Below are positions 1 through 48,524 of a stretch of DNA of 48,524 nt, in pieces. Within the stretch, counting starts at the first letter, position 1. Each line of letters begins with the position of its first letter. The stretch is from contig JAULBX010026086.1 in the NCBI GenBank assembly GCA_032358255.1, positions 1-48,524 of the forward strand, in the 5' to 3' direction. The notes beneath the pieces were generated by a model, which did not search any database, was not told the origin of the DNA, and saw nothing but the letters and a program-made list of their open reading frames with translations. This stretch comes from Heterotrichella gracilis. Taxonomy: Eukaryota; Sar; Xanthophyceae; Tribonematales; Xanthonemataceae. A program made the position numbers and the translations under genes.

Positions 1-524
1 AGCGCTTCGGGGCTGGGTGTCAGGACAGGTACGCCAACAGGCTGGCTTGCTACCGCGCTGGCATCAACCAATTCCCCTGCGAGGGGTCTGTAGTCATGTG
101 CCTGGGGCTGATGGGCCCAGAGGCGATGGGGTTTGCATGCGTGCGGGAGCCTACCATCCGAGTCACTGCCCAGGTGATGAGAGGAGACGGTGTGCGGGGG
201 TGAAATCGTTATGTCAGATAGGGAATGTGATATGCTTTGTGGCAATGTGTGAGCCCACCAACCCAAGGGCAACGCATATATGGGTGACTCTCGGGATCCC
301 CGCCCATTTGCCTCCTTTGTCCCTGGCGGGTTTCTGGTGTTCTAAGCTGGTTTGTTTCCACCAAATTGGGATCTCCTCTGCTTTCTGTATTCAAGACACC
401 CTGTCCCACACCCCAGCACCCTGCATCCCTTGTGCAGCCGCATGTGGTGGGCCAGGTCTTTATTTCCAGTCCATGCATTCTGATTTTGCGTCCCCGTTGG
501 CTCGAATGCCCACTCCACGCGCAG

Positions 525-3500
525 GTGCAGATGGTGGGCCTGATCGCCCGCAGCGAGGCCAGGCTGCGCATCCCCGGGATCAACCCACGGGCCGAGCACG
601 CGCACGCGCTGGCGGTGGCGGTGCCCTGGCTGGTGCATCGCGCCACCTACAAGGGGGCGTACTCTGTCGCGGTGCTGCCGCTGGACTCGGCCTGCGTGGT
701 CCTTGCTGAGGCGCTGCGGGTGGTGCTGCGGTTGTACCTGGACGGGCAAGTGGGGGAGCGGGTGATGGAGGTGCGGTGGTGGTGTGGGTGGGAAGGGGGA
801 AGTGAACAAACTGGAGCAAACAACCCTGCGCATGATTGTGCAAGGCCAAACCTCCTCTACTGCAGAACCGGTTCCAGGTTTCCGTGGTAGTTTCATGGCA
901 GCAGCACCAGGGCCTGCAATTAGGGTTTCAAGGTGCAGAGCAGGGTTATCCAAGGCATGAGTGCCATACCCTGTGTGCAATGCATTGGCAAGGCAGCACT
1001 ACAGCCCTCTCCTTCCTCCTCCCTCAAAACACACCGACCCCCACTCCTTGCTCGATCTAACCACCCTCCCCTCCCTGGCTCCCGCAGTCCAGGGCCCTGG
1101 CACCCACCTGCAGTCTGCTTGCAAGGATCCTCACAGAGTCGGATGCAACAGATGCCTCACGCGCTCCCGCCTTTGCGCCCTCCGTCACCCTGTTCTGCAG
1201 TTTTTCCCGCATGTGCCATGCCGCACTGCTTGTGCGCACCTCACCCGCGGGCGCAGCGGCGCAGTCCGCCTGCCCCACCACGCCACTGGCGCTCCTCATG
1301 CACCGCGCAGGCTTCAAGCGCGTCATCGGGGCAATCCTGGGCAGCAGGTGGGTGCTGTGGGTCTGCTAGGGTCTGGGTTGGGGTTTAGGGTGGAGGGCGG
1401 GCTTCACGAGCATCACCAGGGCCGAGGGGTTTGTTAGGGTTTGCTAGGGCCTGGTCCAGGGTTAAAGATAGGGACGCGCGTCATGCCTCTCATCGAGGGC
1501 CATATTTGCACAGCACAGGTTGACGATGGTTGGGCCTGCTCATTCTGAGCATTTCTGAGCAGACAAAGCAATTCAGAGCAGATGTGTACAAGGGTTTAGG
1601 GTTTGGGGTTTAGGGTGTCTCCACCGGGGTGCTGCAGCAGCAATGGTATGGCCAGTACATGCACATTGAGCATGATCAAGTAACCAGACCATGCAAATTC
1701 CATCAACCTGTTCAATTTTCCAGCGCATTGTTTTTACATCAAACCTGTTCCACGAGCCAGCATGTGCGGCCATATCACCAGAGGCGTTCGCTTGCTGTGC
1801 AGGAATAAGCCCTAAGCCCTGACCTCAAACCACGTTTTGCCCACTGTGCAGGAGTCTCTTCGAGGTGGAGTTGCTCGTCAAGGACCTCTTCCCCTGCACA
1901 CCCCAACATTTGTTGCCCCCTTGTCCCGCCTGTCCCCCCCACCCCCCGCCACCCTGGGCCAGCTGGCAGAGGAGTGCCTGTGGGACATGGTGGTGGAGGG
2001 GGAGGGGAAGGCGGCGCAGGGGGTGTACCATGATGCGAATGTAATGGGGGGCGCGCTCAGGTGGGTTGGGATGCGGGGGAGATGGGGCTGCGGCAGTGGG
2101 TTCTATAGGTTTACGGTTTAGGATGTACGGTGTAGGGGTTTGCTGTCTTTCACGGATCTCTGCCATATGGCAATCCAAAAAGTTCCAATCAAGCGCTTCC
2201 AGTTATTTGCACCTTATCACAGGTCATCACACATGATCGCACCTCATCCCATGTGCTCCTCCCAGGTACCTGCTGCACTGATTTTAATGAGAAATCATCA
2301 CACATGATCGCACCTCATCCCATGTGCTCCTCCCAGGTACCTGCTGCACTGATTTTAATGAGAAATCATCACACATGATCGCACCTCATCCCATGTGCTC
2401 CTCCCAGGTATCTGCTGCACCAATCAGGGTGCGAGCTCCGGCCCAACCTGTGGCACATGTGGGCGGCACTGTGCAGGGTCATACAGCTGGCAAGGAGGGA
2501 GGCAGGTGCGCCCAAGAAGTAATCAAGAGTTTAGGCCAGAGGGACTAGGGTAGGGTTGCAGGGATTAGCAAGGCAACTGCGCGTGGTTCAATAGGAAGGG
2601 CTTAGGGTTAGGGCAGGGGGACCTGAATAGGGTGTTCAAAAGTAGGGTTTAGGGGGACAGATGCGCATGGTGTGCACATGGGGAGGTGGGATGAAGCACC
2701 ATGCATGTACAGTATTTGATCACTTGATGCCATGTGTGTACTGTACATAATCACCGCATATTGAATGCGTACTGTACTTGATCACCGCATACTGGCCCTT
2801 CAATCCAAGCCTCGGATGGATATTTGGCACGACTGACCATCAGTGCCTGTGCCCCCCCCCCCCCCACGCCCATTCCCCACCCCGGGCTGTTGGTTAACAG
2901 ATTCTTCTGTTACAACAGGATGTTTTACTAAATCAATCATCATAATTTTGCTTACAAATTATGAAAGTTTTGAACCCCTCAGCGGCTACCCGACCCCTTT
3001 GTGACCCCGCTATGATCACTGCTGCCCACACCAAATGGTCCACTACTGACCAGTACACGGGCATGCGCCCCCGCACATGCGCTCTCTAAACCCTAAACCC
3101 TACCCCATCTTACCGCTATAGTGACCTGCTATTGGTGCGCAGGCTCGCTACCCCTGGCCCCCCCTGGGCAGGTTCCCGGTGAGTGGCAGCTGGCGGTGCG
3201 GGTGGACGCGGCGCTGCCACCTGGCGATGTGGTGTGGGAGCCAGCAAGTGCACGTGGCGCATAGGCAGCGATTGGGAGGAGAAGGTGCGGGGGCGCAGAA
3301 ACTGCATACTGGGGGTGTCAGAAAAGGGTACTTGTGAATGTGACAATGAGCAGTTGCCTTTTAGGTCCCTAGCGACCCTCTCGCGTTGGGCGGGCCTCCC
3401 AAACCGCACACCTAGGGGCAACAAGTTTTTAAGGTCTTTTCTATTGCAACACCTTTTGGTCCTCACTAGTGCTACAAGTAGCTGGGTAACCCTAGGGTAA

Positions 3501-4668
3501 AGCTCTGCTTGTTTTGCCACTACCAGACCCCTTGCCTTAACCATGCGCGCTACCCCCTTGCTGAATGTGCCTGCAGGCCGACCGCGTGTGCCGGGTGATG
3601 CACCGCGTATGCCACGAGCAGTGGGCAGCCGGCAGTGAACCCACCACCCACCATCCGGAGGTGCCACTGGCATCGGGCAAAGATGGAGGTGGAGGTGGTG
3701 GTGGTGGTGGAAGGGGTGGTGGTGATGGTGGTGGTGGTGATGATGGGGCCTCAACCTGCCACCTGGAGGTGGTGCTGCCAGGTGGCGCCAGCTGCAGCGC
3801 GGTGGTGCAGTGTGTGCGCTACGTGGACACACCACCTGGGATGCGGGGACTGGTGACTGCACTGGTGGTCAGCAGGAAATGGAGCAACGTGGCAGCGGTA
3901 GGGCGCCAAACCCTAAAACCTTATCTGAACGAAGGTGGCAGGGGTAATAGCCTAAAATCCTAATATAAATGGAGCGACGTGTCATGTCTGGGCATTGCCA
4001 AATAACGCCAGGCCTGGGGTGGATTGCTCTGTGGCTGTGGGGTTGATGTGGGGTTGCGCATGCATTTTTTTTTGTATTTTCCCAATTAAATGCCGAATGG
4101 ATGCTTCACTCCAGCTTGCTTGTGCTTGCAGTGCCAGCAGCGGGTGCAAGACCACCTGTCCCTTGATCACACAGCGATGGTGCTACGCTGGGGTGACTGG
4201 CTGGCGGGGGATCCAGAACCAGCACCCTGTGGAAGTCCCCTCGGCATCCTGCGCCAGGTGCTGGCGGCGGTGGCGCAGCAGTGCTTGGCGGCCCCCTCGG
4301 ATGATGATGCAGCGCGCTGGATGGAGCATGCCTGTGTGCTGTACGCCGTGCCCGATGCGGTGCGCGAGGATGGTGTGCACCTGACCGCATACTGCAGCAC
4401 CGCGCCGCTGTGGCCGCCGCTGGAGGGCGCACCACGGGGGTCCAATACTTCAGCCGCAGGGGAGGGGGTCAGCGGTGCGCACATGCGGCGGACGAAGCGG
4501 CGCGTGTGTAGCGCTTGCGGCGCTGCTGCGGGGGAGGATGGCGCGCCCCTGCGCAAGTGCCCATGTGGTAAAGCGCGCTACTGCAGCACCGACTGCCAGA
4601 ACCAGCACTGGCTGCAGCACAAGGCGGCGTGCAGGGAGGCGCGGCAGGCGGCGGAGAAACCCAGCTAG
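525..4668 (+). CDS. MYND zinc-finger protein (multi-exon; 5' end uncertain)
   Basis: The last exon ends in a clear MYND zinc finger (about 4508-4647). It has the CSAC pair, then KCPCG, RYCSTDC, QNQHW, and a final HKAAC, which is the Cys/His spacing of the family. MYND fingers bind proline-rich peptides in partner proteins. My exons are 525-749 or 525-770, 1088-1347, 1852-1876, 1963-2060, 2408-2505, 3143-3247, 3577-3897 and 4132-4668. Phases agree at all joins except after 3247, where the donor is uncertain; the 86-base intron at 1877-1962 is inferred to avoid a stop. The body contains hydrophobic helical stretches (for example SVAVLPLDSACVVLAEALRV) and a Gly/Asp-rich low-complexity run near 3683-3750. 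No SET domain is visible, so I do not call it a SMYD methyltransferase. The first exon may lie left of the window; 1-524 shows no exon I can support. Confidence 0.7.
1591..1616. repeat. telomere-like TTTAGGG tract inside an intron
   Basis: The tract carries imperfect repeats of the plant-type telomere unit (GGGTTTAGGG, then GGTTTAGGG). It lies inside an intron of the MYND gene, far from any sign of a chromosome end. Single or double copies of the same motif recur nearby, for example around 1385 and 2645. Confidence 0.8.
2225..2409. repeat. 71-bp tandem repeat carrying a splice acceptor
   Basis: Units begin at 2225, 2296 and 2367, an exact 71-base period. The first two are full length and nearly identical; the third runs into the real exon at 2408. 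Each unit contains a TCCTCCCAG acceptor followed by GTACCTGCTGCAC, nearly the same as the true exon start GTATCTGCTGCAC. Three alternative acceptors are therefore lined up in the intron. Only the last leads into a long open frame. Confidence 0.9.
3087..3103. repeat. CCCTAAA tract just upstream of an intron acceptor
   Basis: Two CCCTAAA-type units lie about 40 bases before the exon that starts at 3143. The sense strand is C-rich here, at the 3' end of the intron. Confidence 0.7.
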
Positions 4669-4710
4669 GGCATGCAGGAGGTGCGGCAGGCGGCGGGGAA
4701 CCCTAGCTAA
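4629..4710 (+). repeat. duplicated stop-codon end of the MYND gene
   Basis: Bases 4629-4668 (the last codons and TAG) are repeated with a few changes at 4672-4710, ending in TAA. Both copies contain GCGGCAGGCGGCGG and an AGCTAG/AGCTAA end. The second copy is past the stop and so lies in the 3' UTR. Confidence 0.85.
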
Positions 4711-4711
4711 G

Positions 4712-6419
4712 GCAGCTCGCGGTCTTGCCGGGAGGTCACCAATTGCCATCAGTGCGCACCATGAGGGGAAGGACCATAGTCCCCAGTGCTTCGATGGGAG
4801 CGTGTGTAAAAATGTGGGGGCGTGTGGTGTGCATCCCAGGGAGTTGTGTATATGCTGCAGGCCTTTGGCAATTCTGCACGATATGATAACTGTTTAATGT
4901 CCAACGACATCATGTGTAATTACCGGCATTCAATACTTTGAATGATATTGATTGCCATTTGAAATGGACCCGCCGTCGAACGTGCATGTGACTCCAAGGA
5001 TGACATGGGACTCCAAGGCATGTAATTACAGCCATCATGACCGGAAGAGGACTGGAGAGGACCTCTGGAGCTTGCTGTAACAATGTTACATGTCATGTTA
5101 CAGTCACTGTGTCACCTATTGAGGATGCAATGCCATCTGATGGCATGGTTCATGGTTGTCGTACATGCTTATAACTGTAGTTACCTGTCAGTGAATTAAT
5201 GATTAATCAAACCAATTAATATAGACTACACTAAACGCCAAGCCAATGATGTATATGACAAATCTCAACAACACTGAATACATATGCCTAAAAATGCTTG
5301 CCCAGCAAAGTTTGCTACGTGCACGTGGTGACAACCTGAGCAGCTATTGGTGGCGTCATGACGACAGTAAATAATAAACAACCGTTTTAATACCGCAATG
5401 GTTTTCAACTATGGCAAATCACAATGACGGGCTCATCGCTTCGCCTCCCACGCCATGCCCCAATCAACTCCTCTGCATCCCTCAAAATCTGCCCGGCCCG
5501 TTGAACGGTATGCGAACACAACCTCTAGCTATCAGCTTACAAAGGCACTGACCACCCCTTTTGCTGACATTCTGATTCCTGAAACCAGTTAAAATTCTGC
5601 CGCTGGGCCAACTGTGTCCCAAAAGGCCCCTGGGACCAGCTGCTGTCCAAAAAAGGGCCTTTGGGACCAGCCTCAGTTCCCATAGCACGTATTACGTGCG
5701 CCTGGGGCTGAAGCTGGTTTGCAAGGGCTGGGCCCTCCCAAATGTGCTGAAGGTGCCCCCCCGAATTCGCAGAAAACACCCAAAACGCAGCACCCGGCCC
5801 ACCCTCAAATGTGCTGCAGCCCATCCCCGAATTGCGCCTGGCCCATCAAAAAAATTGGGCACCTTTCCCCCACAATTGCGCTGGAAGCCATCCCCGAGAT
5901 GGATGTGCACACCGCCCCCACTGGCTCGATCAGCTTGCTGCAAGCTCGATGCTTGTCCAGCTGCTGCTGGCAGCTACATCACGGGGTGGTGCGCGGCTGC
6001 AGGCCGCTGGTATGCAGGCTTGCTATCGCTCATGCGCTTGCAGTACCTACGTTTCAAAATAGGTATTAAAGTGTTTTAGTGATGGAGATATGTTATTGCA
6101 GTGGAGAATTGACATGGCAAGATGAATTAAGAACACCGCCCCACGCAGTGATGCGTCATATGGCCCTTGACGCAAGTCAGGGATGGCAGGTGATACAGGG
6201 CAGGTGGTGCATGCACATGACGCACCAGCCCTTCCGTGCTAATTTCGAGCTCACAGTTGAAGGTTTCTTGTTCAAAAGTCTCATATGCTGGTTCAGGGAT
6301 TGGGGTGGGAGGTTTTGTGCTAAGCGTCTTCCATGCCGGTTTATGGTCCAGGGTTTTGTTCTACTGTTCTTCCATGCTGGAGCAGGGTTCAGGGCCTAAC
6401 AGGTTGTAGGGTGTAGGAT
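4712..6419. other. convergent intergenic region
   Basis: This region lies between the 3' ends of the MYND gene (+) and the RING1-like gene (-). It is AT-richer than the genes, and TGTAA, a common algal polyadenylation signal, occurs near 4803 and 4914. Open frames around 5480-5950 on both strands are short, Pro/Gly-rich and match nothing I recognise. I see no supported gene. Confidence 0.5.
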
Positions 6420-6485
6420 TCAATTACCAGGTCTTCCATGCTGGTTAGGGTTTAGGGTTACAATTACCAGGTCGTCCATGCTGTT
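6285..6485 (-). repeat. degenerate copies of the RING1 C-terminal codons
   Basis: The last RING1 exon encodes SMDDLVI near 6463-6485. Its DNA (read on + as AATTACCAGGTCGTCCATGCTG) recurs at 6423-6447 as AATTACCAGGTCTTCCATGCTG, separated by a GGGTTTAGGG tract. Looser CTTCCATGC(C/T)GG copies occur near 6329 and 6369, and a TCATATGCTGG form near 6285. The present stop codon (6420-6422) lies in the first duplicated segment, so the annotated C-terminus may have been extended by the duplication. Confidence 0.65.
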
Positions 6486-12314: not shown

Positions 12315-12458
12315 ATCATCTGTGGGGGCACAATGATTGCCGTCCGCGCCACTGAAACGGGTGTAATCATCAGCTCCAATCAGCTATTGGGCACAACGAT
12401 AGCCGCCCGCGCCACTGCAATCAGCTGTGGGGCACAATGATCGCCGCGCGCGCCACCG
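12315..12458 (-). repeat. three copies of the NYC1 stop-codon end
   Basis: The true end of the last exon (12418-12458 on +, with GGGGCACAATGATCGCCG) is followed on the gene's 3' side by diverged copies at 12377-12417 (TTGGGCACAACGATAGCCG) and 12315-12354 (GGGGGCACAATGATTGCCG). Each ends in CGCGCCACTG or CGCGCCACCG. The copies lie beyond the stop, in the 3' UTR or flank. Confidence 0.85.
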
Positions 12459-15400
12459 CATCGGCTGCGATCAGTAGGTAGCATGCCACGATGGATGCAG
12501 AGTAGGCCAGGCCCAGGCCGCTGCTGCGGCGGGCCGCGGCTGCCGCCAGGCGCTCGGTGCGGCGGGCCGCCTCCCCGAAGATGCGCTCGCGGTCACCGGG
12601 ATACACAGGGTTGCCTGGGGATGCACATAAAGTAACCATTTTATGTTTATGTGAAACAAGGGGAGGGATTGGCAAACAGGATTGGCGGGGAAATGAGAAG
12701 CACAAGCAAGCACATTGCTTTCGCGTTGAAACAAAGCTGATCCATTAAAACATGCATTGTGGAAAGAAGGACAAAACCTTGACGCATTCTTCCATAACAC
12801 ACGTTGTGGGGCCCTGTGAAGGGTGCTGTATAAACACCCACCTTCGCTGTCAAAAAACCTGTTGGCCCTGAAGGGCGCGCTGACAAACCTTGCCAGGGCG
12901 CGCGGCACCGTGAGGAAGCGTATGTAGCTGCCCTGCTGGCTGCGGGCAACCACGGTGCGGGCGCGCGGGACCAGGTAGGCCGCCACAGTCTCGGGCTGCT
13001 CGCACAGGATGTTGAACACCTGCGACCGAAATTAGGTTTAGGGTTTAGGGTTTTAGCTTAAGGGTTGTGATGAGGGCTTAACATTTAAGGGTTTGTGTGG
13101 GGTACAAGGTAGGCCGCCACAGTCTCGGGCTGCTCGCACAGGATGTAGAACACCTGCCAAGGGGAATCAGGGTTGAGAGTAGGGTTTCACAGATGTGAGG
13201 GGCGCTAGAGGGTTTACAGTCTAGGGTCTAGGGGCATATTTACCTGCTTGTTAGTGTCTGTAGCCCCCTCCAGCAGGAGCTGAGTGAGCACCATGCCTGG
13301 GGACAGCGTGTGGATCCCCACGGGGCGGGGCAGCTGCTCTGCCTCAACCTGAAGGCTGGACATGAGGTGGGAGATGCCTGCGTGGAGGGAAGTGGGTGAG
13401 TGGGGATTGCTGGTGGTAGCACAGGTGGTTAGGGACGAGCCTACAAGTATGCAAGACACAGCCCATATTATTGTCATTCATTCTTATTCACAACCCATGG
13501 CCGCCAGTCTAGGGCACCGCTACCAAAAGCCGAAAACCCATGAAATCATAACTCTGATCACCACTCCAGAACGCTCCCTGTTATTGCCGCCGCCCACCCG
13601 TCCACACCCACCAGCTTTGGTTGCGCCGTACGCCGCGTACATGGGCGTTGCCGCCCCGTCCGCCCCCGCCCCGTCCATGTTGAATATGTGGCCGCTGGTC
13701 TGCTGGCGGGACATGACGCGCATGGCGGCGCGGGTGCACAGCAGGGAGCCAATCAGGTTGGTCTGGACCACCTGCGGGTGGTGGGGGGTGGGTGGTGGGG
13801 TTGGTGACTGGGTGGTATGGGTGGTGCAATCGCAGTAGCCACACCACCTTCCGTTACCCTGTTGAGCCTTGCCCATCCCTGAGGCCGCGTGGAGCTGCTA
13901 CAAGGCTTAGGGCATAGGATAGAAGATTTACACTTTGACCATGCAGGGCCCTGAATGAGCGGCGCTGCCTGACCAGGAGAACCCTAAAACCTAAACCTTA
14001 AACGGCAAGTGTATGGCGATTCTTGTGGCCCACCCCCCTTCACCCCACCACCCCACCCGCTGAACCTGCTCAAGATGCATGTCCAAAATCGACTTGAACC
14101 CTAAAACCTAAATGGCAAGTGTATGATAACACTCGTGGGCCCACCCCACCTGCTGAATCTGCTCCGGCTGCATGTCCACAAACGACTTGAACGACCCGCT
14201 GTACCCCGCGTTGTTGACCCACATGTCGATGCCCCCAAGCTGCGTGAGCGCCAGGTCAGCAAGGCGGGCCACGCTGGATGGGCTGGACACGTCGCACTCA
14301 ATGCCCATGACCTAAGCAGCGGGGGGGGTTGATAGGGGTTAGTGATTAAAAGGGTTTCTTGAGGGATCGTACTCGATGCCCATCGCCTAAGCAGCGGGGA
14401 GGAGCAGAGGGCGCATGGTGAACCCTGGCAGCACAGTTTTTGCAGCCAGGATATAACAATGACCACCCAATGCAGGAGATTTACTACAAAGCACGTGACA
14501 CAACCTGAGCTTCCTATTTTCATAATTGCAAATTCGCAGACAGTCACACAAACCGCCGGCAAAGCAGCAAGCCCCCTAGGTGGCGGTGGTGTCACCCAGG
14601 ATCCCCACCTGCGCCCCCGGCCCCACTTCCTCCTTCAGCTCCTCCACCGCCTTGCGCACCGCGGCCTTGGATCGAGAGGTGATGCACACCCTGTCACCGC
14701 ACCGCAGCGCCTCCCTGGCCAGCGCCTTGCCGATGCCGCGGGTGGCGCCGGTGATGACCACGCGCAGCGGCTCGCGGGGCGCGGTCCACAGGCGCTGCAT
14801 GCCCATGCGGTTCAGGCTAGCATACAGACCACCTGCAGGGGCGGGAAACAGGGCGGGAGGTCAGCAAGTCGGTAGGGGTTTGGGTGGGGACGATGGGTGT
14901 TTGGTATGAGGGGTGATGGGGGTTGACCCGATGGGGGTGGCGCCTGTGATGGCCATGCTTAGTGGCTCGCGGGGCGGTGTCAACAGGCGCTGCATGCCCA
15001 TGCGGTTCAGGCTGGCGTACAGACCACCTGTGGAGGTGGGGCAAGGTTAAGCTGGTGGGGATATAACATGGACATGGGGTGGGTTTGGTGGGGGATTGGG
15101 TAGAGGCGGTGGTGCGGGTTGGTTCAATAGGGTGGCGCCTGCACTTGCGCATGAAGTGTAATTCTTTATTTCCAGCTCAAATGACACTTGCATTCAGTTA
15201 ATTTTAAACTGGACGCAAACTACTTTACTCCTTTTTGTAAAAATGTTGCTCACTCACCTACGACCCCCCCCGTCAGCACTGGTAGCCACATGTGGTCCGT
15301 GCACAGCTCTGACAGCTGGCAGGCAGTGAACAGGATGTGCGCAGAGGCAAGCACCAGGCCGATGGGCTTGTGGAGGCCGTCCAGATGACCCGGCTTGGGC

Positions 15401-35700: not shown

Positions 35701-38700
35701 ACCAGCGGGCTTGATGGGACGCCGGTGGTGCTGATACAGGTAGGGGTGTAGGGTTCCCGTACGGCCTGCAAAAGTTGCAAAGGTATTGGCAGGGCTACCA
35801 CAAAAGAACTCCATAGAAAGCCCTGAAACCAATGAAGCAATAAATCAGAATTTCAGGTTTTCCTCAGGAATGTGCGACCCCTAAAAAACTTCCATCCCCC
35901 GCTACTGCAGGGCCCTCCTGGGACCGGCAAAACCCGCACCATCCTGGCCCTGTTGAGTATCATCCTGCACTCGGCACCCAAGGGCAGCGTGGGCCTCACC
36001 ACCTACACACCGGCTGAGAAAACACAACCAAGCGCGGAGGATAAGCAGCGGCTGTGGCAGCTCAGCTGTCCCTGGGTGGCGGGGGGCGTGGATGTACGGT
36101 GCGTCCTTTTTGGAACACGGAAAATACCTCACCATACCCTACGGAAGACCCTAGGCGCTGTTCAAGGGGTATAGTTCAGCACGCTTACAGCGTGCATGCC
36201 ATCATCCCCACCCCTTCACCCCTCCAAGGGTAATAAGATAATAATAGGCCCTTTTATTATCTTATCACCTTTGACATTTCCTATCACCCTTGAGCCCTCC
36301 GCCACACCTATTATTATTTTCATAACCTTGACCCCCCACACCCCCACCTCCACCCCCACCCCTCCAGGGACGCGACCCCCCCCAGCCAGGTGGGGGACCC
36401 CTCCACTGCCTGCGGGCTGCTGGACCGCCCACCCCCCACCGCAGTGGGTACTGACACCGGCTGCCGGGCGCGCGTGCTGGTGTGCGCCCCTTCAAACTCC
36501 GCCCTAGATGAGATCGTGCTGCGCATTAGCAAGGGGCTGTACAATAGGTGGGTGCCATAAACCCTAATCCTGATTCCTAAACCCTACAGGTCCTAGGTGC
36601 ATTGGGGTTTCATGCGGGAGAGGTCCTTGGTTGCTTGAATGTGGGGTGCCGGGCGCGCGTGCGCTGTGTGCGCCCCTCCAAGTCTCGCCTTTAATCGTGG
36701 CTGTGATGTAAGTCTTGATTCTCCTGCTTGTATCTCATTCCTAGTGATCTAATTTCCATTTTTTTCCCCACACAGGGCAAGAGTTGTACCCCCAGCGTGT
36801 GGAGAGCTGCGCCTAGTTCTATGACTGACTGCCCCTTTTTCACTGTTATCAACATACTGTATTATGATGCCTTTTTTTATAACTGTGATTCTGTCCCCCA
36901 GGCAGGGCAAGAGGTTCGCCCCCAGCGTTGCACGGGTGGGTGTGAATATGCATCACTGGGTAATTACCAGATACCCGATGTCATTATGATCCGCTGTGAC
37001 TGATCTTTTGCCTTCCATTTTGTGCCCCCCAGGCAGGGCAAGAGCTTTACCCCCAGCGTGGCGCGGGTGGGTGTGAACGTGCATCACTCTGTGGCGCACC
37101 TGTCGCTTGAGGCGGCTGTGGAGGGGCGGGTGGGGGCGGGGGCAAAGGACAAGGTGGGTGTGAATTGGGGGGTGGGAGGTTGGATGGGAATGCGTGGCAG
37201 AAATGGCTTTTACTCAAATTGCATAGACATAAATCCTCACAACCCACCACCAACCCACCCGCTCCCTCCTCCGCCCACCCCCTCCCCCTCCCTCACCCCC
37301 CAATCCCCCACTCCCCTCAGACTGGCCGTCCCCTGGGGCGCCACGAGCGGGACCGCCTGCGCCTGGCCATCCTGGAGGATACCAACGTGGTGTGCTCGAC
37401 GCTGTCCTTTGCTGGCTCCTCGGTGTTTGCGCGGCTGCGGCGCAGGTTCGATGTGGTGATTATTGACGAAGCCGCGCAGGCGGTGGAGCCATCTACACTG
37501 GTGCCCATAACGCACGGGTGCAAGCAGGTAAGGGCGGCGCATGGAAACCCTGTCAAAACCCTAAGGATCCATAGCTATAGTAGGATGCCCAGTGGTGTTT
37601 GCGCGGCTGCGGGGTAATGACGAATGGGTGCAGGCAGGTAAAGGGCGCTGCTTGGACCCTAAATCCTAATGGTTACCGCATAGGAACCCTAATATGACCC
37701 TGGCGGAGAACCCTATGGTAGAAACCCTTACATAAACCCTAAACCCTGGTCGCAGGTGTTCCTTGTGGGCGACCCTGTGCAGCTCCCTGCAACAGTCATA
37801 TCCACACGCGCGGCAGCACATGGCTACGATGGATCCATGTTCAAGAGGCTGCAGACGGCGGGCCACCCGGTGCAGGTGGGGTGAAATGTGGATGGGGGGG
37901 CTGGGGCTGGGGAGTACTCTAGGGTTTGGTTAACATCCAGCTAGGAATTTATCGCTACATAACCACACCAAAGCCAGGGATTCCCCGTCCCTCGTCGCAA
38001 GTCTAAACACCCAGTACCGTATGCACCCCGCCGTCTGTTCTAAACCCTATTCTAGGGTTGCAGCAACCGATCGCCCCTCCCCCTCCAGCACCGCCTGCAC
38101 TCCGCCATCTCAGAATTTCCACTCCAAGCAGTCCAGAACCCTACCCAAGGGTTTGAAGCAAAGCCCTGCCTTCAGATTTTGTTTTGACACAGGGTTCTGT
38201 CCGCCCGCAGGTCCCAGACACCCTGCACCGCATTTGCATCCACAATCTGTTCTAAACCCTGCCCTAGAATTGGTCCAAATCTCATACCAAGCCCTCCTAC
38301 CCTCAGGTCCTGGATACCCTGTACCGCATGCACCCCGCCATCTCCGCCTTCCCCTCCAAGCATTTCAAAACCCTGTCCCAGGTTTTTGAACAAAATCCTA
38401 CCATTAGGGTTCGTGAAATCCAGGGGTTTCCCTCCCCACAGGTCCTGGACACCCAGTACCGCATGCACCCCGCCATCTCCGCCTTCCCTTCAAAGCAGTT
38501 CTATGGGGGCAGGCTCAAGGACGGGGAGGGGGTGCAGGAGCGCAACACCAAGCCGTGGCACGCCATCCCCTGCCTGGCGCCGCTGGTGGTGTTTGACGTG
38601 CGAGGTGGGTGGCAGTGGGGTGGGGGGTGGGGTGGGTGGGGGAGGCGTGCGGGGTGGGTATGGTGGTGGTGGTGCTTGTCATGTTTGGCGCACGGTGGTG

Positions 38701-40581
38701 GTGGTGGCGATGGGGTGGGTGGTGGCGATGGGGTGGGTGGTGGCCGTTACAAGTTGATTCCTCACGGCGGGTAGGTGGTGGTGCTGGGGTTCAGGGGTAG
38801 GGTTTGTGTAGGCATTCGCCTCTTTTTCATCCTCCCTGATACCTGAAACCCCCACTCCCCGCAGGCAAGGAGAGCATCCCCACCAACAGCGTTTCCCTTG
38901 TAAACGAGGTGGAGGCAACCTTCGTGCTGCACTTGTACAGGGAGCTGGTGGGCAGGCACCCGCAGCTGGCGGCATCAGCGGCCCTGGGCATCATCGCACC
39001 CTACAAGGCGCAGGTGAGTGTGGATGGTGGTGGGATTTGAAACTCTGTAGGTATACAGGGTGCGATGGGTGTGGCGGTTGGGGTGGTTGAAATGCAATTA
39101 TTGGCCCTGGTAGGTTGTAGGAACGTGATGTGTCCTGACCCTAGTCCTTAAATCCCAGACTCCAATGCTTGAGGCTTAAGAGACCCTGCACTCGCCACTT
39201 CTGTGAATGGATCCCCAGATGAATCCCTCACGGAAGCACATGTGGTGTTGTTATGGCCGCCCTGGCCGACGCCTGCTACCTCAAACCCTAAACCCTAATT
39301 CTTCCTCATCCCCAGGTGAATCTCCTGAAGCACAAGTTCAAGGCTGCCCTGGGTGATGCCTACCACACAGTGGTGGATATAAACACAATAGATGGATTCC
39401 AGGTGGGTGGTGGGTGTGGTGGGTGGTGGGTTAGTGGGGGAGGCAGGCAGGGAAGAAGAGGGGTCCTTTTGTGCATAGCTGCATGTGCAGCCAACCGTGT
39501 GCAGCCTAGTCATTAATCACTCGTACCCTCTACCATACTCTCCCCTCTTCTCGATCCCCAGCACTGGGCCGCAAGGAGAAATCCCTCGCCTTCTCCACCA
39601 TCCGCAGCCCATCCCCACCCAAGGGTTTAGGGTTAATGGATTGTAGCCTGATACTCGAAACCTACATTGCCTTGGAAACCCTGCCAAAACCCCCGCAGGG
39701 CCGGTAGGAGGAGGCTGCCAACCCTAAACCCGAATACCCTAAACCCCTAAACCCCTAAAACCCTAAGGTCCCCACCCCAAACCCACTGCAGGGCCGCGAG
39801 AAGGAGGTGGTCATCTTCTCCACCGTGCGCTCCTCCGTGGGCCGCTCCATCGGCTTTGTGGCGGACGAGCGGCGGGTGAACGTGGGGCTCACGCGCGCCC
39901 GCGCCTCGCTGTTTGTGGTGGGCAACGTGCGCGCGCTGGCGCAGGACGAGCGGTGGCACAACCTCATGCGCCACGCGCGGCTGGGGGGCTGCATGTACCA
40001 CGCCACCAAGCCCTTCCCTGAGTTCCTGGAGGGCGCGATCGCGGGCGGTGTGGCGCCGGTGGCGGTGCTGCCGGGGGACAGGGTGCGTGCGGGGTTTGGG
40101 GTAGGGCTTAGGGTTTTGAGTTTGGGTACATGCGGCCCTTGTGCATCCCTCATTGTTTCGCTAGTGGCACCTTGTGTTGGATTAGGGTATAGGGTTTAGG
40201 TTTTTCATCAACTCGCATCCCTACTGGACCAGATTATATTCTATTGGATTTACTTGCCTTGCAGAAAGGGGAGTTTGTGCCAGAGGTGGGGCCAGGGGTA
40301 TATGACGACGAGGAAACATTGTTTAATTATTATATTGGATTATAATTAACTGAGTTCACTTTCCTTTTTCCCAGGAGGAGGAGTTTGTGCCCGAGGCGGA
40401 GCCAGGGGTATATGATGACGAGGATGCGTACAGCGACTATGAGCACATGCCGGAGGAGCATGTGGGTGCTGGTGCACTTGTCCCAGTTGTTCCTGCTGCG
40501 GGTGGGGGTGGTGGGGGGCGCAAGCGGGGTGCGGGTGGGGCGGGAGGTGGTGCGAAGCGGGGGCGCAGGGGGAGGGGCTAG
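32712..40581 (+). CDS. MAA3: Sen1/MAA3-type superfamily 1 RNA/DNA helicase
   Basis: ATP-dependent Upf1-like SF1B helicase; family members resolve RNA-DNA hybrids and aid transcription termination in the nucleus. Sixteen exons: 32712-32849, 33220-33339, 33581-33679, 34232-34350, 34955-35120, 35611-35739, 35911-36098, 36368-36547, 37033-37153, 37321-37527, 37756-37875, 38442-38604, 38865-39013, 39316-39402, 39792-40082 and 40375-40581 (2484 nt, 827 residues). Every join keeps frame. The N-terminus matches MAA3/senataxin (VLAWNYFD, EPLLLEEIAAQL). Helicase motifs are GPPGTGKT (about residue 258), RVLVCAPSNSALDEI (358), VVIIDEAAQAVEP (467), VFLVGDPVQLPAT (490), LDTQYRMHPAIS (532), QGREKEVVIFSTVRS (about 663) and RRVNVGLTRARASL (695). 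The tail is Gly/Arg/Lys-rich (RKRGAGGAGGGAKRGRRGRG). Exon-edge copies fill many introns. Confidence 0.94.
33858..33927 (+). repeat. pseudo-exon copy of helicase exon 3
   Basis: GGCTGTGAGTCGGGAACATGTAGACAGTAATGTTGTGCTGG resembles exon 3 (GGGTGTGAGCCGTGAATACGCAGACAACGACATCGTGCTGG), followed by a CACCCACATGGAGGTGTG version of CACCCAGATGTACGTGTG. It lies 180-250 bases downstream of the exon. Confidence 0.85.
34431..34528 (+). repeat. pseudo-exon copy of helicase exon 4
   Basis: Contains ATGGGCCTGGCTGAATCTCACGAG, GTGCTGTTCAGGTCGCCTGAGGCG and GCATGCAGGGGAA, matching exon 4 (ATGGGCCTGGTTGAGTCCCACGAG, GTGCACTTCAGGTTGACTGAGGCG, GCATGCGGGGAA). It is followed by a GTAGGTGG donor-like site. The protein reading is MGLAESHEW. 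Confidence 0.9.
35250..35322 (+). repeat. pseudo-exon copy of helicase exon 5 end
   Basis: TTGCACAGTCTGGGTGTGGTGCCCCTTAGCCAGGCGCTGCTGACTGGGAAGGTGCGTG copies the exon 5 end (CTCCACAGCCTGGGTGGGGTACCCTTCAGCCAGGTGCTGCTCACTGGGAAGGTACGTG). The donor is retained. Confidence 0.9.
36645..36692 (+). repeat. partial copy of helicase exon 8
   Basis: GTGCCGGGCGCGCGTGCGCTGTGTGCGCCCCTCCAAGTCTCGCC copies exon 8 (GCTGCCGGGCGCGCGTGCTGGTGTGCGCCCCTTCAAACTCCGCC), the segment coding motif Ia. It lies about 100 bases past the exon. Confidence 0.85.
36773..36959 (+). repeat. two pseudo-exon copies of helicase exon 9 start
   Basis: Copy one (36773-36800) reads CAGGGCAAGAGTTGTACCCCCAGCGTG. Copy two (36894-36959) reads CCCCCAGGCAGGGCAAGAGGTTCGCCCCCAGCGTTGCACGGGTGGGTGTGAATATGCATCACT. 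The true exon at 37033 starts AGGCAGGGCAAGAGCTTTACCCCCAGCGTGGCGCGGGTGGGTGTGAACGTGCATCACT. All three carry an acceptor. Confidence 0.93.
37593..37647 (+). repeat. composite copy of helicase exon 10 pieces
   Basis: GTGTTTGCGCGGCTGCGG (exon 10, near 37423-37442) is joined directly to a GGGTGCAGGCAGGTAAAGGGCG version of the exon 10 end and donor (GGGTGCAAGCAGGTAAGGGCGG). The middle of the exon is missing. Confidence 0.8.
38000..38366 (+). repeat. four degenerate copies of the QYRMHP helicase exon start
   Basis: Copies at about 38000-38038 (TQYRMHPAVC), 38086-38136 (degenerate, with CACCGCCTGCACTCCGCCATCTC), 38204-38245 (acceptor GCAG|GTCCCAGACACCCTGCACCGCAT) and 38299-38366 (VLDTLYRMHPAIS then AFPSKHF). 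The true exon begins at 38442 with VLDTQYRMHPAIS. Several copies are followed by AACCCTGCCC or CAAAACCCTG linkers. Confidence 0.95.
39211..39243 (+). repeat. copy of helicase exon 14 acceptor and start
   Basis: ATCCCCAGATGAATCCCTCACGGAAGCACATGTGG resembles the true boundary ATCCCCAGGTGAATCTCCTGAAGCACAAGTTC at 39308, about 96 bases downstream. Confidence 0.8.
39558..39718 (+). repeat. two degenerate copies of helicase exon 15 start
   Basis: The first (39558-39612) carries GGGCCGCAAGGAGAAATCCCTCGCCTTCTCCACCATCCGC, a version of GGGCCGCGAGAAGGAGGTGGTCATCTTCTCCACCGTGCGC. The second (39691-39718) carries CCCCGCAGGGCCGGTAGGAGGAGG. Both lie upstream of the exon at 39792. Confidence 0.85.
39721..39768. 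repeat. CCCTAAA tract before helicase exon 15
   Basis: Five CCCTAAA-like units in 48 bases, about 25 bases before the acceptor at 39791. Confidence 0.9.
40265..40345 (+). repeat. copy of helicase exon 16, possible alternative last exon
   Basis: After a good acceptor (CCTTGCAG) this segment codes KGEFVPEVGPGVYDDEETLF, then NYYIGL and a stop at 40343-40345. Exon 16 codes EEEFVPEAEPGVYDDEDAYS. The copy is in phase with exon 15, so it could serve as an alternative terminal exon without the Gly/Arg tail. Confidence 0.8.
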
Positions 40582-40852
40582 GTACCACTTGGGTGAGCAT
40601 GGGGGAGAGGTAGGGGGTCAGGCCAGGCCCTGGTTGGGTCATCCCGTGTGATGGGATAGGAGGTGGTATCTGCCTGGGTGCGTCCCCATTCTTCAGGGTT
40701 TTTGTAGGGTTTTGGGTTAGAGAACTTGCCATGTGCCACCTTATCTTGACACCCTTAGGGCTGTCTGTCTCAAAAGCATCTAGGGTCCAGGCTAGACCCA
40801 AAGCACGCAGGGCTAACAGCAGTACACAGTTTAGGCTTCCAGGCTGTAGGCT

Positions 40853-42156
40853 TTACAGGCAGTAGTCGACAGCGTGCGTGAGAATGTTTTCAAACACACG
40901 GTTGCCAGGCAAGTGCCACAGCAAGTCAGCAGAGTGGCGTCGGATGGCCTTCAGCCTCTGTTGGTGCTGTTCCAGTGGTAGGTCCAAGATGGACTCGAGG
41001 TGGTGGAGTGTGAAGTTATGCGGCAAGCTGTACGCCAGGTTTGCCCAAGGCACTTTACCCATAAAAGGCAAGCCTGTCACCCACAACTGTTCGCTGACGA
41101 TGATGGGTATTGCACCCACGCGGAGTATATCGTACAGCCTCGAGGTGCTGGCAGTATCGCCGTGGAACACAAAACCAAACCGGGAGTTGCGCAGGAGGTC
41201 GCGGTAAAAGTCGTCACCTAATAGCCTCTTTAGGCAGCATACACACCGCCTCGTCGAGAGGCACTCCTTCTCGTCACACTCGTCGGGGAAGCTGGTGCAC
41301 GCCTTGCCCCATTCGTTGCTCGCAAACATATACGTGAACTTGTACCGTGAGCCCTCTGCCTGAAGGAGCCTGCCAATGTTTCGGTGCGTTCTGTAGTTGG
41401 GGTTGCGGTCAGTGCGGCCAACAAAAAACACGTCGAACGCTCGCTTGGTGAAGGGGATTGCGGCTGGCAGCGGCACGTCAGCCCTTTCGGCCACATAAGG
41501 AAAAGAAACATAGCATCGCCCAAACTGCTTCACTGCCAACGTGGCGTGGCCATTGGGCCTACTGACTCATAGTGGGCCACAGTCATCCTGGCTGCCAGTT
41601 TCCTGAACCCTTCAGGCAGCGGCACTCTGAAGGACTTCCAGTCGAACATCACGATCATGTGGTCCCTCCCCTGGCGAGCCTGGTAGCTGGGCTCACGCAG
41701 CAGCGCTGTGGAAGTCACACTGAGCATTTGCAGTGGGCTGAGGCCGCTGCAGTTGCCCACCCTTGCCGCATATCCCAGTAAGATGGCACAATGAAGAGCG
41801 CAATGGCGGGGTCGGAAGGGTCGCGAACGCGTGCCAAATGCTGCAGCGCGGCCTCGAGAAACCAGACAGGGGGGGAGTTGCAACCGAGCGAGTATTTGAA
41901 AGCAGACACAGTCAGTTCCGATGTGGTCACTGACGAGGAGCAGTTGCCAAGCCAGTCATATTCTGGCCCCTCATACACATAGAAACTTTGTAAAAAACCA
42001 TAAACTTTGTAAGAAAGGTACCGAAGCAAGACCGAAGGAGCCCAAGACGGCCAGCAGCGCAACCCCACCCCACCCCACACATTTGGCATGTGCCAGATGC
42101 CAAGTATTCAAGCGATGCATGCATGCATTATGCATGCGTACGCCCATATATGTCAA
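40853..42156 (-). pseudogene. frameshifted exostosin-family glycosyltransferase copy
   Basis: A tandem homologue of the intact gene at 44809-46077. Three frames hold consecutive parts: YVYEGPEYDWLGNCSSS (from about 41973), then YAARVGNCSGLSPLQML (to about 41540), then FGRCYVSFPYVAERADV to the stop at 40853. Against the intact copy there is one base missing near 41787 and a net two-base gain near 41540. At the N-terminus an AT-rich insertion near 41972-42012 disrupts the signal-peptide join (GWGGVALLAVLGSFGL). Most of the rest is well conserved, including RLYDILRVGAIPIIVSEQL, so loss is recent or some breaks are sequence errors. The 3' UTRs of both copies are also similar. Confidence 0.8.
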
Positions 42157-44386: not shown

Positions 44387-44808
44387 TTAGTTACCGTATT
44401 GTTGGACAAGTTGTCCACACATGACCAGTGCCACCAAACTTGATATTTATTCTCAATGAGCCAAGCTCGTTGTTGCTGCCCCAGTGTTTGACATGGTGGT
44501 CCCGTCATAATTCCTTTTACAAAATATTTATAATTATTCCGAAGGCGCGCCTAGGAGTCCTTCCACACTGCTCATCAGTGGTGGCAACCGTTGACTCCCT
44601 GAAATGTCGCCATAGTTTGAAAGGCTTGCTGAGTTTGTCATGCACAAGTTGGTGGTACAGGAAGCTGGTAATGGACATGCACCACCTTTTGTGCAGTGCT
44701 TGTTGAAAACCCTTCAGGTTGTCTGACAGTGTCCCAAAAACACTGTCCAGGGTCCAGGCTAGGCCCAAAGGGCACTCAGGGCCAACAGCAGTATACACAC
44801 AGTTTAGC
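44387..44808. other. convergent intergenic region
   Basis: Lies between the 3' ends of the fucosyltransferase-like gene (+) and the intact exostosin gene (-). The part at 44740-44808 resembles the 3' flank of the exostosin pseudogene (40780-40852), with AGGGTCCAGGCTAG in both. Confidence 0.5.
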
Positions 44809-46077
44809 TTACAAGCAGTAGTCCACAGCGTGCGTAAGAATGTTATCAAAAACACGGTTCCCAGGCTGGTCCCACAGCAGGTCAAGCAAGTGGTGCTGAA
44901 TGGCCTTCAGCTTCAGTTGGTGCCGCTCTGCAGGTTGGTCCAAAATGGCCCGCAGTTGGTTCAGGGTGAAGTTGTGTGGCAGGTTGTACACCATGTTTGC
45001 CCACGCCACTGTACCCATGAAGGGCAGGCCTACCACCCAGAGATGTTCGCTGACGATGATGGGGATTGCACCCACGCGGAGTATATCGTACAGCCTCGAG
45101 GTGGTGGCAGTATCGCCGTAGATCACTAAACCAAACCGGGAGTTGCGGAGGAAATTGCGGTAAAACTCGCTCCTCCCCGGGGGATGTACGTACGGGAGAC
45201 AGCACACGCACCGCCGCGTCAACAGGCACTCATCCTCGTGGCACTCCTTCTGGAAGCTGGTGCACTCCTTCCCTTTTTCGTTGCTTGCAAACACATACGT
45301 GAAGTTGTAGCGTGAGCCCTCTGCCTCGATGAGCCTGCCAACGTCACGGCGGGTCTGGTAGCGTGGGTTATGGTCGATGCGACCAACAAAGAACACGTCG
45401 AACGCTCGCTCGGTGAACGGGACTGCAGCTGGCAGCGGCACGTCAGCCCCTTCGACCACGTATGGAATAGGAACGTAGCAGCGCCCAAAACTGTTCACTG
45501 CCAGTGACACTGCACCTGGGCCGTTTGTCGTTGAGTGGGCCACTATCATCCGGGCTGCTGCATCCCTAAACACATCGGGCACCGTCACTCTCCAGAACAT
45601 CCAGTCGAACATCACGATCACGTGGTCCCTGCCCTGGCGAGCCTGGTAGCTGGGCTCACGCAGCAGCGCTGTGGAAGTCACGCTGAGCATCTGGGTTGGG
45701 CTGAGGCCGCTGCAGTTGCCCACCCTTCCTGCGTACCCCAGTAAGTTGGGCACGATGAAAAGCGCTATGGAGTGGTTGGACGGGTCTCGAACGCGTCCCG
45801 GATGCTGCAGCGCGGCCTCGAGGAACCAGATTGGGGGGGATGTGGTACCGCTGAGATTCTCTCCCAACGAATACTTATAAGTAGATACTGGCATCACCCC
45901 TGACGCGGAGCAGTTGCTAATCCAGTCATATTCTGGCCCCTCGTACACATAGCATGGTGCCGAAGCTGCAAGACCGAAGAAGCCCAAGACAACCAGCAGC
46001 GCCACTCCACCCCACCCCACCCCAGCCAAACTGTTCAAGCATTGCATGCATGCATGCATATGCGTGCGTGCACCCAT
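44809..46077 (-). CDS. exostosin-family (GT47-like) glycosyltransferase
   Basis: An intact intronless gene of 422 residues. A signal peptide or anchor is visible (GGVALLVVLGFFGLAASA) followed by PCYVYEGPEYDW, the usual exostosin opening (xVYExP). The middle has FVVG-type FDVFFVGRIDHNPRYQTRRD. The exostosin donor-site block is NSRFGLVIYGDTATTSRLYD then ILRVGAIPIIVSEH, with LPF after it. Six or more N-glycosylation sites and paired cysteines (CVCC) fit a secretory-pathway enzyme. In plants and algae GT47 enzymes build cell-wall polysaccharides or protein-linked arabinose/galactose chains; the sugar specificity cannot be read here. The ATG choice among MGARTHMHACMQCL is uncertain. It is a close paralogue of the broken copy at 40853. 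Confidence 0.88.
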   Translation of the reverse strand: MGARTHMHACMQCLNSLAGVGWGGVALLVVLGFFGLAASAPCYVYEGPEYDWISNCSASGVMPVSTYKYSLGENLSGTTSPPIWFLEAALQHPGRVRDPSNHSIALFIVPNLLGYAGRVGNCSGLSPTQMLSVTSTALLREPSYQARQGRDHVIVMFDWMFWRVTVPDVFRDAAARMIVAHSTTNGPGAVSLAVNSFGRCYVPIPYVVEGADVPLPAAVPFTERAFDVFFVGRIDHNPRYQTRRDVGRLIEAEGSRYNFTYVFASNEKGKECTSFQKECHEDECLLTRRCVCCLPYVHPPGRSEFYRNFLRNSRFGLVIYGDTATTSRLYDILRVGAIPIIVSEHLWVVGLPFMGTVAWANMVYNLPHNFTLNQLRAILDQPAERHQLKLKAIQHHLLDLLWDQPGNRVFDNILTHAVDYCL

Positions 46078-47021: not shown

Positions 47022-47160
47022 GAAAAACTGCCGTCGGCTCCTGCTGTATGGGGGTTGAGCTTGCCTGTACTGTAGCATTGCGCCACCTAGGGTGCGTGTC
47101 TCGCTTTAGGGTTTTGAAAACTACCCTCAGCTCCTTTGGCATGGGCTTCAGCTTGACAGC
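47022..47160 (-). repeat. two copies of the right-edge gene's stop-codon end
   Basis: 47107-47160 (TTTAGGGTTTTGAAAACTACCCTCAGCTCCTTTGGCATGGGCTTCAG) and, more diverged, 47022-47092 copy the true end at 47213-47270 (TTCAGGGTTTTGAACATCGCCCTCAGCTCCTGCGGCGTGGGCTTCAG). They lie on the gene's 3' side. Confidence 0.85.
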
Positions 47161-47210
47161 GGGTAGTCATGTGGCGACCCCAAACTAGGGTCCATGCCTC
47201 CTCCTTCACC

Positions 47211-48524
47211 TCACTTCAGGGTTTTGAACATCGCCCTCAGCTCCTGCGGCGTGGGCTTCAGTTTGACGGTGTTGTAGCACTGCGCCACCTGCTGCTCCAG
47301 GCGTGAGTAGCTGTCGCCAAGCTCCTCCTCGATCCTGCACACAATGGTTTAGGATTTAGGGTTTAGGATTTAGGGTTTCGAAGGGGCATACGAAGGGGTG
47401 TGGCGAGTAGCTGCTTGCCCAGCACCTCCTCGATCCTGCACACACAAGGGTTTGTAGCGTATTTAAGACAGGTAAGTAAAGGGTGGATGCAAGTGCGGCC
47501 TTCATCGCAACAGGTAGGGTATTGGTAGGGTTTGCAAGTTTGTAGAATGTGAAGGGAGTGGCAAGCTTTGGATTGGCATGTAGCCCTGTGCCACCTGCTG
47601 CTCCAGGCGGGAGTAGCTCTCGCCAAGCTCCTCCTCGATCCTGCACGCACAGGGCTTTGGGGTTGAGGATAGGGTTCGTGGAGGGAAAATGAAGGGGATT
47701 GGAAGGGTGAGCATGTTGTCAACTCTGCAATCTTGCACACACAGGGGGCCGCCGGTGTTTTGGGAAGGTAAGCGAGGGACGGGATGGGCCAGCAAGCTGG
47801 CCATTACACTAGGGTTCCAAACAGGATATCCCTTTGGGTTTCCTAACCGCTTCACACACCCCCATGACCATGTGTGGGCTGCTTCTCTCCATGTGCTTGT
47901 GCACCAAACCCCAGTAGGGTCCCAATACGGTTTCCCTAGGGTTTCATCAGAATTGCCAACGGGGTCCTACCCAGGCACTGTACCAAGATCACCTCTAGGG
48001 TTTTCAGGAGGGTTTGCGCACCTCTTCCACACCCCCGTGACCATGTGCGGGGAGCTGCTCTCCATGTGCTTGTGCACCCGCCCCTAGTAGGGTCTCAGTA
48101 GGGTTTCCACCAGGGGTCTATCCATGCACTGTAACAAAATCACCACTAGGGTTTTTCTTAGGGTTTTCCCACCTCTTTCACACCCGCGTGACCATGTGCG
48201 GGCTGCTGCTCTCCATGTGCTTGTGCACCCGCCCCCAGTAGGGTCTCGGTAGGGTTTCCACCAGGGGTCTAACCAGGCACTGTACAACACCACTACTAGG
48301 GTTTTCAGTAGGGTATCCGCCGCACCTCTTCCACACCCGCGTGACCATGTGCGGGCTGCTGCTCTCCATGTGCTTGTGCACCCGCCACCAGTAGGGTCTC
48401 AGTAGGGTTTCCACCAGAGGTCTAACCAGGCACTGTACAACATCACCACTAGGGTTTTCAGTAGGGTATCCGCCGCACCTCTTCCACACCCGCGTGACCA
48501 TGTGCGGGCTGCTGCTCTCCATGT
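47211..48524 (-). CDS. 3' end of an unrecognised multi-exon gene (partial)
   Basis: The last exon is 47211-47334, coding IEEELGDSYSRLEQQVAQC, then YNTVKLKPTPQELRAMFKTLK and stop. The preceding exon codes VHKHMESSSPHMVTRVWKR and joins in frame (AAGAG|G ATC) through a GTGCGG donor. It exists in several similar copies in the array to the right, so I cannot tell which one is used. The protein end is helical and charged, perhaps a coiled coil. I do not recognise the family. The rest lies beyond the right edge. Confidence 0.6.
47347..47378. repeat. telomere-like tract before the last exon
   Basis: TTTAGGATTTAGGGTTTAGGATTTAGGGTT on + lies about 12 bases from the acceptor. On the gene's sense strand it is CCCTAAA at the intron's 3' end. 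Confidence 0.88.
47401..47645 (-). repeat. two pseudo-exon copies of the last exon's start
   Basis: 47582-47645 codes RIEEELGESYSRLEQQVAQG, almost the same as the true exon, with the acceptor CTGCGTGCAG. 47401-47441 codes RIEEVLGKQLL and is degenerate. Both lie in the intron upstream of the true last exon. Confidence 0.9.
47853..48524 (-). repeat. about 152-bp tandem array of an exon with its splice donor
   Basis: The anchor TGACCATGTG occurs at 47865, 48038, 48189, 48342 and 48495, spacings of 173, 151, 153 and 153 bases. Each unit codes on the minus strand (V)HKHMESSSPHMVTRVWKR followed by a donor (AGAG|GTGCG or similar), and each spacer carries CACTAGGGTTTT and CAGTAGGGT motifs. The array runs off the window edge. 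Confidence 0.93.

Follow-up and report, generated by a model that had tools for sequence, protein, structure and literature searches.

We analysed a 48,524-nt stretch from the assembly listed under the xanthophyte alga Heterotrichella gracilis (contig C358, positions 1-48524; 68.5 Mb in 903 contigs), hereafter the window, many of whose introns carry diverged copies of the exon edges next to them. In the typical layout, A-x-A', a working exon edge (A) is separated by a spacer (x) of mostly 20-165 bp from a dead copy (A') on its noncoding side. Exon edges were predicted by a self-trained gene finder without RNA, and the terms "working" and "dead" rest on these gene models; the gene finder joins some adjacent genes and takes some dead copies for exons. 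Copies were placed in five genes of the window: a MYND-finger gene, a short-chain dehydrogenase gene, a gene at 26.9-27.8 kb, a SEN1/MAGATAMA-3-like helicase gene and a gene near 47 kb.

Exon-edge copies in the window

Close to the start of the window, an acceptor with its exon start (cag/GTAYCTGCTGCAC; the slash marks the splice boundary) is present in three tandem copies with a period of 71 on the plus strand (2224-2420), the last of which is the predicted working edge. This is an example of the true tandem arrays that also occur. The MYND-finger gene ends with a stop codon at 4668, and a copy of this gene end begins 9 nt past the stop (4626-4714, plus strand). On the minus strand, a dead donor-edge copy at 12315-12369 accompanies the predicted working copy at 12420-12473, and a predicted working acceptor edge (gcag/GTGTTC...) at 12967-13023 is separated by a 77-nt telomere-like spacer from its 95% identical dead copy at 13101-13157, most of which the gene finder called coding as well. 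On the same strand, the short-chain dehydrogenase gene carries a donor edge (14048-14192), with a dead copy at 14048-14099 and the copy predicted to work at 14141-14192. Two acceptor edges follow: one at 14292-14402, predicted to work at 14292-14327 and dead at 14367-14402, and one at 14740-15030, where the predicted working copy (14740-14835; 93 nt of exon and 3 nt of intron) and the dead copy (14935-15030) are 89% identical. On the plus strand at 26889-27834, an exon end bearing a donor-like GTGGGG (...TACAGCCTGCACGCGTTCAG/GTGGGG) recurs in several diverged copies, which were recognized by eye and left unclassed by the script. At 47030-47697 on the minus strand, copies of an acceptor edge are clustered and separated by telomere-like stretches.

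The helicase gene, on the plus strand, carries copies at several edges. Its working donor edge (35058-35127) is matched by 13 of 13 homologues and the dead copy of this edge (35252-35321) by 0 of 13. Two dead copies of an acceptor edge (36754-36957) lie upstream of the working acceptor edge of the QGKSFTPSVAR exon (37013-37088); at the same residues, the first (36754-36799) is matched by 0 of 13 homologues, and the second (36889-36957) still by all 13, more weakly than the working copy. The QYRMHP exon edge exists in at least four copies, including the working acceptor edge with the VLDTQYRMHPAISAFPSKQF exon start at 38431-38501. At least three others span 37970-38366 (37970-38036, 38085-38132 and 38296-38366), the nearest being 90% identical to the working one and the farther ones 79-83%; the copy at 37970-38036 is again weakly matched by 13 of 13 homologues. 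Two acceptor/exon-start copies (40232-40314 and 40338-40424, together 40232-40424), 77% identical, lie near the predicted C-terminus.

PDB homologues align to a single copy of the QYRMHP exon of SEN1 and to a single copy of the KFSKS exon of methionyl-tRNA synthetase (MetRS), whereas the raw gene models of both genes held extra copies of these exons. Gene finders can be expected to make such pseudo-exon calls in genomes of this kind. Among 120 listed helicase homologues, 112 have one QYRMHP-like motif, eight have none and none has two. The best of these 120 matches is from Myrmecia bisecta (52% identity) and the next ones are from other green algae, with no protein of the same species among them; by these matches, the host is a green alga, probably a trebouxiophyte. 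At the MetRS locus (L010, 4354-5255), an exon end has been multiplied in tandem to several copies.

Abundance and distribution of local duplicates

Beyond the window, we sampled 25 loci of 10 kb and excluded three of them (L005, L009 and L024), leaving 22 algal loci; all comparisons were made inside this one assembly. The excluded loci have a low GC content and long open frames and probably derive from bacterial companions in the assembly; a first scan gave one direct pair in L005 and none in L009 and L024. Local self-alignment (E<1e-3, period of at least 25, gap of at most 1 kb) yielded 144 direct pairs and one inverted pair in the window and the 22 loci, with 36 of the direct pairs in the window. 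Three dinucleotide shuffles of each 10-kb piece yielded 0 pairs, which rules out chance similarity. The copies are mostly 23-150 bp long and, within the 1 kb covered, lie mostly about 20-300 bp from their source edge. A gap of at least 10 bp separates 121 of the 144 direct pairs, and a tandem minority of 23 has gaps below 10 bp. All 53 non-overlapping pairs with at least 85% identity have gaps of at least 19 bp, and 48 of these gaps do not exceed 165 bp. Three loci chosen for telomerase and PCNA (L029-L031), which are non-random and were kept outside the main counts, contain 12 pairs, by eye 10 at exon or stop edges, one doubtful and one purely noncoding; L027 and L028 hold one pair each.

The pattern is real, dense and patchy. 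The original prediction, made from the window alone, had proposed that introns hold copies of adjoining exon edges and had suggested self-alignment with shuffled introns for comparison, which now bears it out (144 direct pairs against 0). Its view that the copies arose again and again over time, and not just by the growth of microsatellites, agrees with identities of 69% to 99% among the pairs of the window and with shuffles devoid of matches. It had counted at least six affected genes; five could be placed. A genome-wide mode, which it had also considered, is not borne out by the distribution: 11 of 27 10-kb segments contain no classed edge pair, although one of these, at 20-30 kb of the window, holds the copies at 26.9-27.8 kb that the classifier missed. 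Copied stop-codon ends had been claimed for four genes of the window, where we find one, at 4668. Over all loci, a stop-spanning copy lies within 800 nt of three of the 42 predicted gene ends, this one included, and two further stop-end copies outside the window were seen by eye (in a PCNA gene in L030 and at 4761 in L020). None of the 35 predicted gene starts has a start-spanning copy within 800 nt.

Anchoring at exon edges

After removal of the 23 pairs with gaps below 10 bp (tandem or overlapping) and of gapped pairs with less than 78% identity, 92 pairs were left. In 65 of them the working copy contains a predicted exon edge, namely 34 donors, 29 acceptors and two stops; the remaining 27 comprise copies inside exons, purely noncoding pairs, protein repeats and unclassed cases. 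The exon part of the 65 edge pairs has a median length of 42 nt (quartiles 29-63 nt) and the intron part one of 16 nt (quartiles 7-25 nt, mostly 3-40 nt). The exon part is the larger one in 52 of 65 pairs, compared with 48% in a simulation (p = 2.7e-7).

Two controls bear on this anchoring. When the annotation was shifted in the 11 copy-rich sources, pairs with at least 80% identity contained a boundary in 68 of 81 observed cases compared with 41.5 of 77.1 shifted ones, and with long, high-scoring exons only, in 53 of 82 compared with 18.5 of 79.1. None of 300 shifts reached the observed overlap, and the result holds at three gene-model stringencies. The simulation, built on our own gene models and assumed decay rates, placed 4,000 random events and subjected them to selection and neutral decay. 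It left more noncoding than edge pairs (959 and 727 at 85% identity or more), and random placement gave equal intron and exon parts (38 and 37 nt). At the same identity, we observed three noncoding pairs, 49 edge pairs and one pair within exons, the edge class here being looser than that of the 65 pairs and including any overlap with predicted coding sequence. The noncoding share of 3/52 differs from the simulation with p of about 5e-15.

Duplicated acceptors show the sequence AG/GT in 13 of 28 cases, compared with 101 of 641 in the baseline (p = 2e-4), which may include false predicted acceptors. The excess hints at better survival of events at these sites. The corresponding difference at donors (17/31 compared with 261/638, p = 0.14) is not significant, and many pairs lack AG/GT.

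Telomere words in the spacers

Telomere 6-mers account for 4.9% of all words in the spacers, compared with 2.4% in the 60 nt past the dead copy (30 pairs richer, nine poorer, p = 0.001); in mid-introns without copies at rich loci, they make up 0.9%. Of 61 spacers, 37 contain telomere words. Matches between spacers of different loci involve telomere words in 23 cases, with one other short match, and introners or other mobile intron elements were rejected on the ground that the 61 spacers share no family sequence apart from these words. In the inspected pairs with at least 88% identity, the spacer is by eye unlike the outer flanks, indicating that most pairs are not decayed head-to-tail duplications. 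For most pairs, simple tandem duplication followed by decay was therefore rejected, given these seemingly unrelated flanks and the gaps in all 53 pairs of high identity.

The words show a strand bias at acceptors, where CCCTAAA alone occurs in 13 spacers and TTTAGGG alone in three; at donors, each occurs alone in eight. The C strand lacks AG and is pyrimidine-rich, so that the bias may reflect selection to keep the acceptor usable. Branch-point-like CTRAY is found in the last 50 nt of 13 of 29 acceptor spacers, compared with 6 of 29 stretches past the dead copy and 19.5% in a set of 174 introns. The pyrimidine content of the 20 nt upstream is 0.634 for working and 0.638 for dead acceptors. Seeding of the copies by G-runs was considered and is not relied on: acceptors with copies have such runs in 24 of 27 cases compared with 223 of 491, but donors show no difference, and the baseline may hold false exons.

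Over the 27 segments, the number of edge pairs per 10 kb follows the density of telomere words (rho = 0.785), a partly circular correlation to which the spacers themselves contribute words. Two algae in one assembly seem a doubtful cause of the patchiness: codon usage in rich and poor segments correlates at 0.995, and TBP and the telomerase domain were each found in one place only. Two clearly diverged PCNA genes, in L030 and L031, with stretches about 47-72% identical, would still be compatible with such a mixture. The telomerase gene, with a Telomerase_RBD domain, lies in L029, and this locus itself bears five local direct pairs in 3.2 kb, mostly at predicted exon edges.

Fate of the extra copies and intron length

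The dead copies of 70 pairs (1,035 codons) differ from the working ones by 182 synonymous, 181 replacement and four stop changes, and their coding indels comprise 16 frameshifts and three in-frame events. By our own estimate, this decay is near what a neutral copy beside a constrained one would give, although synonymous change is somewhat in excess. Such almost neutral decay marks the dead copies as relics, not alternative exons; mutually exclusive exons were rejected on these substitutions, on the 16 of 19 coding indels that break the frame and on the 7 of 1,035 codons that turned into stops. Chimeras of haplotypes or species were likewise rejected as the source of the copies, on the frameshifts, the near-neutral substitutions and the helicase region, for which the assembly holds no second haplotype. 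The same frameshifted, almost neutrally decaying copies make an assembly artefact unlikely, as the original prediction had argued.

The dead splice sites largely persist: GT is retained in 26 of 32 dead donors (24.8 expected) and AG in 27 of 29 dead acceptors (22.2 expected under neutrality, p = 0.02), so that the spliceosome could still see them and decoy splicing, raised by the original prediction, might occur. Neither value falls below the neutral expectation, and selective killing of dead sites was rejected accordingly.

Introns with a copy have a median length of 420 (n = 63) and those without one of 174.5 (n = 300), although longer introns also offer more room for copies; intron growth fits this difference. 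Intron creation, another role once suggested for the copies, finds no example, as in none of the 65 edge pairs do both copies hold a working exon edge. Two or more copies are present at 17 of the 60 edges with a copy. At these multi-copy edges the nearer copy is the more similar one in 30 comparisons, the less similar one in 11 and tied in one, comparisons within an edge not being independent.

Three other features of the window stand apart from the copies. A small palindromic dispersed repeat of 49 bp (36225-36273) matches both strands and recurs at no fewer than about 30 other sites in the genome with 84-93% identity. A tandem gene pair (40766-42147 and 44730-46077) is 76% identical and has more relatives on contigs C697, C835 and C60. 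A 153-bp tandem repeat of 3.7 copies with 90% matches reaches the end of the window (47961-48524).

Discussion

Intron lengthening is usually ascribed to transposons and slow drift. Based on the anchoring of the copies and the composition of the spacers, we propose, with about even confidence, that these introns grow from their ends through the repair of staggered breaks at exon edges, with target duplication and often telomeric filler. A break at an exon edge would leave offset ends with A as the overhang, fill-in on both sides would duplicate A, and the ends would be joined via the filler x, often consisting of repeats added by telomerase. The surviving events would be those that leave the frame intact and spare one functional splice site; under this requirement, it is the outermost copy that would remain in service, while the other would drop into the intron. 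With repeated hits at the same edge, older copies would move farther in and the intron would gain length from its ends. As the simplest guess for the targeting, transcription or splicing might create a break-prone zone that covers exons and about 25 nt beyond; together with the purging of exon-disrupting events, such a zone would lead to short intron overhangs and few noncoding pairs.

Several observations weigh against repair of this kind. Random breaks followed by selection predict many noncoding pairs, few of which are seen, and an extra edge-targeting step is thus needed; neither mammalian telomeric insertion nor fill-in by CST/Pol alpha accounts for the anchoring at exon edges. No telomere word at all is present in 24 of the 61 spacers, and where words occur, they are not clearly placed next to the working copy (relative position 0.38-0.66 on average), so that no clear priming side emerges. 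The frequency of G-runs does not differ between donors with copies (15/28) and other donors (231/493). Over all 84 copies, identity shows no significant dependence on edge distance (rho = -0.14, p = 0.20). Finally, neither an empty-site allele nor a close relative was found, and we infer the insertion of x from the layout.

Could the copies instead have been templated from intact edges? An intron-internal break might be repaired by copying a nearby exon edge in a Pol theta-like or synthesis-dependent manner, x then being old intron. The proximity of the copies to their sources speaks for this, and a short intron overhang would yield a copied acceptor without its own upstream signals, presumably a harmless one; the equal pyrimidine richness upstream of working and dead acceptors suits old intron, and equally well its opposite. 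However, template switching is expected to yield both orientations, and only one of the 145 pairs is inverted. The spacers are also specifically telomere-rich, and the restriction to exon edges would be left unaccounted for, so that we regard templated insertion as unlikely. In an RNA-linked origin, nascent or mature transcripts or exon-limited R-loops would template or trigger the event and anchor one of its ends near the splice site. Of the two ends of A, one indeed lies close to the splice site, with quartiles of 7-25 nt into the intron, and the exon end is spread broadly (29-63 nt); the orientation is almost exclusively direct. Yet stop-codon edges are copied as well, and no copy with a spliced exon-exon junction was seen, although no search was aimed at junctions; we consider such an origin quite improbable.

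Some ascertainment must exist; under the loosest definition a circular shift alone puts about two thirds of the pairs on edges. Random local duplications without any targeting, noticed at exon edges because the constrained copy stays recognizable, are nevertheless a very unlikely explanation in view of the surplus of noncoding pairs in the simulation, the predominance of the exon part and the shift control in the 11 copy-rich sources. A similarly low probability attaches, in our judgement, to intron gain or recursive splicing through duplicated AG/GT, by which the extra piece would leave as a small intron of its own beside the old one. The AG/GT excess at duplicated acceptors, the retained AG of the dead ones and the CTRAY at the ends of acceptor spacers would fit, but the enrichment does not extend significantly to donors, many pairs lack the motif, the acceptor baseline may include false predictions, and the process would account for survival rather than origin.

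Returning to staggered-break repair, its more specific form, in which the telomere machinery (fill-in and telomerase) recurrently repairs breaks targeted to exon edges and layers edge copies and telomeric filler into introns, would amount to a distinct, splice-boundary-directed mode of intron growth. We put this forward tentatively, at less than even confidence. With datable scars on some 60 exon edges within about 270 kb, a direct test of the link among break repair, telomerase and intron growth comes within reach. The component parts are known; among the leading matches of our literature search, the combination of edge anchoring, gapped copies, telomeric filler and number of events was not described, nor was the pattern in any alga, and in this sense the combination appears new.

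The closest parallels come from telomere biology. In mammals, according to the cited passages, telomeric repeats are inserted at staggered breaks in one step with target duplication (PMC7215372, PMC2246262), and the break site, duplicated directly around telomeric filler, resembles the layout in the alga, where direct duplications flank on both sides (A-x-A', with 144 direct pairs and one inverted) an insert that contains telomere words in 37 of 61 cases. In contrast, duplication alone is reported there for a minority of loci (3/66 in horse, 6/130 in rodents and 4/25 in primates; PMC7215372, PMC2246262), whereas in the alga it is dense and placed at exon edges. At paired breaks, as described in the cited part of PMC8355091, the telomere complex CST and Pol alpha fill in 3' overhangs and likewise generate short direct duplications, and the same source refers to paired-nick duplications in plants; the copies described there are immediately adjacent, unlike those of the alga with their usual unrelated spacer of mostly 20-165 bp.

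Other parallels concern introns. Short direct repeats at intron borders have been read as marks of break repair (PMC11782384; Daphnia gains as cited in PMC3443670). They too lie close to splice sites, but in these accounts they have lengths of 4-30 bp and are defined between one border of an intron and the other, whereas the algal copies mostly measure 23-150 bp, belong to one intron end and include exon sequence. For the [D] stwintrons of Lipomyces, a donor duplication by fill-in of a break has been proposed (PMC7138796), a process similar to ours; the duplications in the cited section comprise 4-7 nt in the introns of one gene, and telomeric filler is not mentioned there. Models of intron gain through AGGT duplication (PMC3443670, PMC4974935), as far as the cited passages set them out, share with the alga the duplicated splice boundary and the AG/GT excess at acceptors. 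The apparent survival advantage of AG/GT sites suggests a resemblance to such gain or to stwintron formation (PMC7138796), but instead of a new intron between coding flanks (0/65), it is the existing introns that lengthen in the alga.

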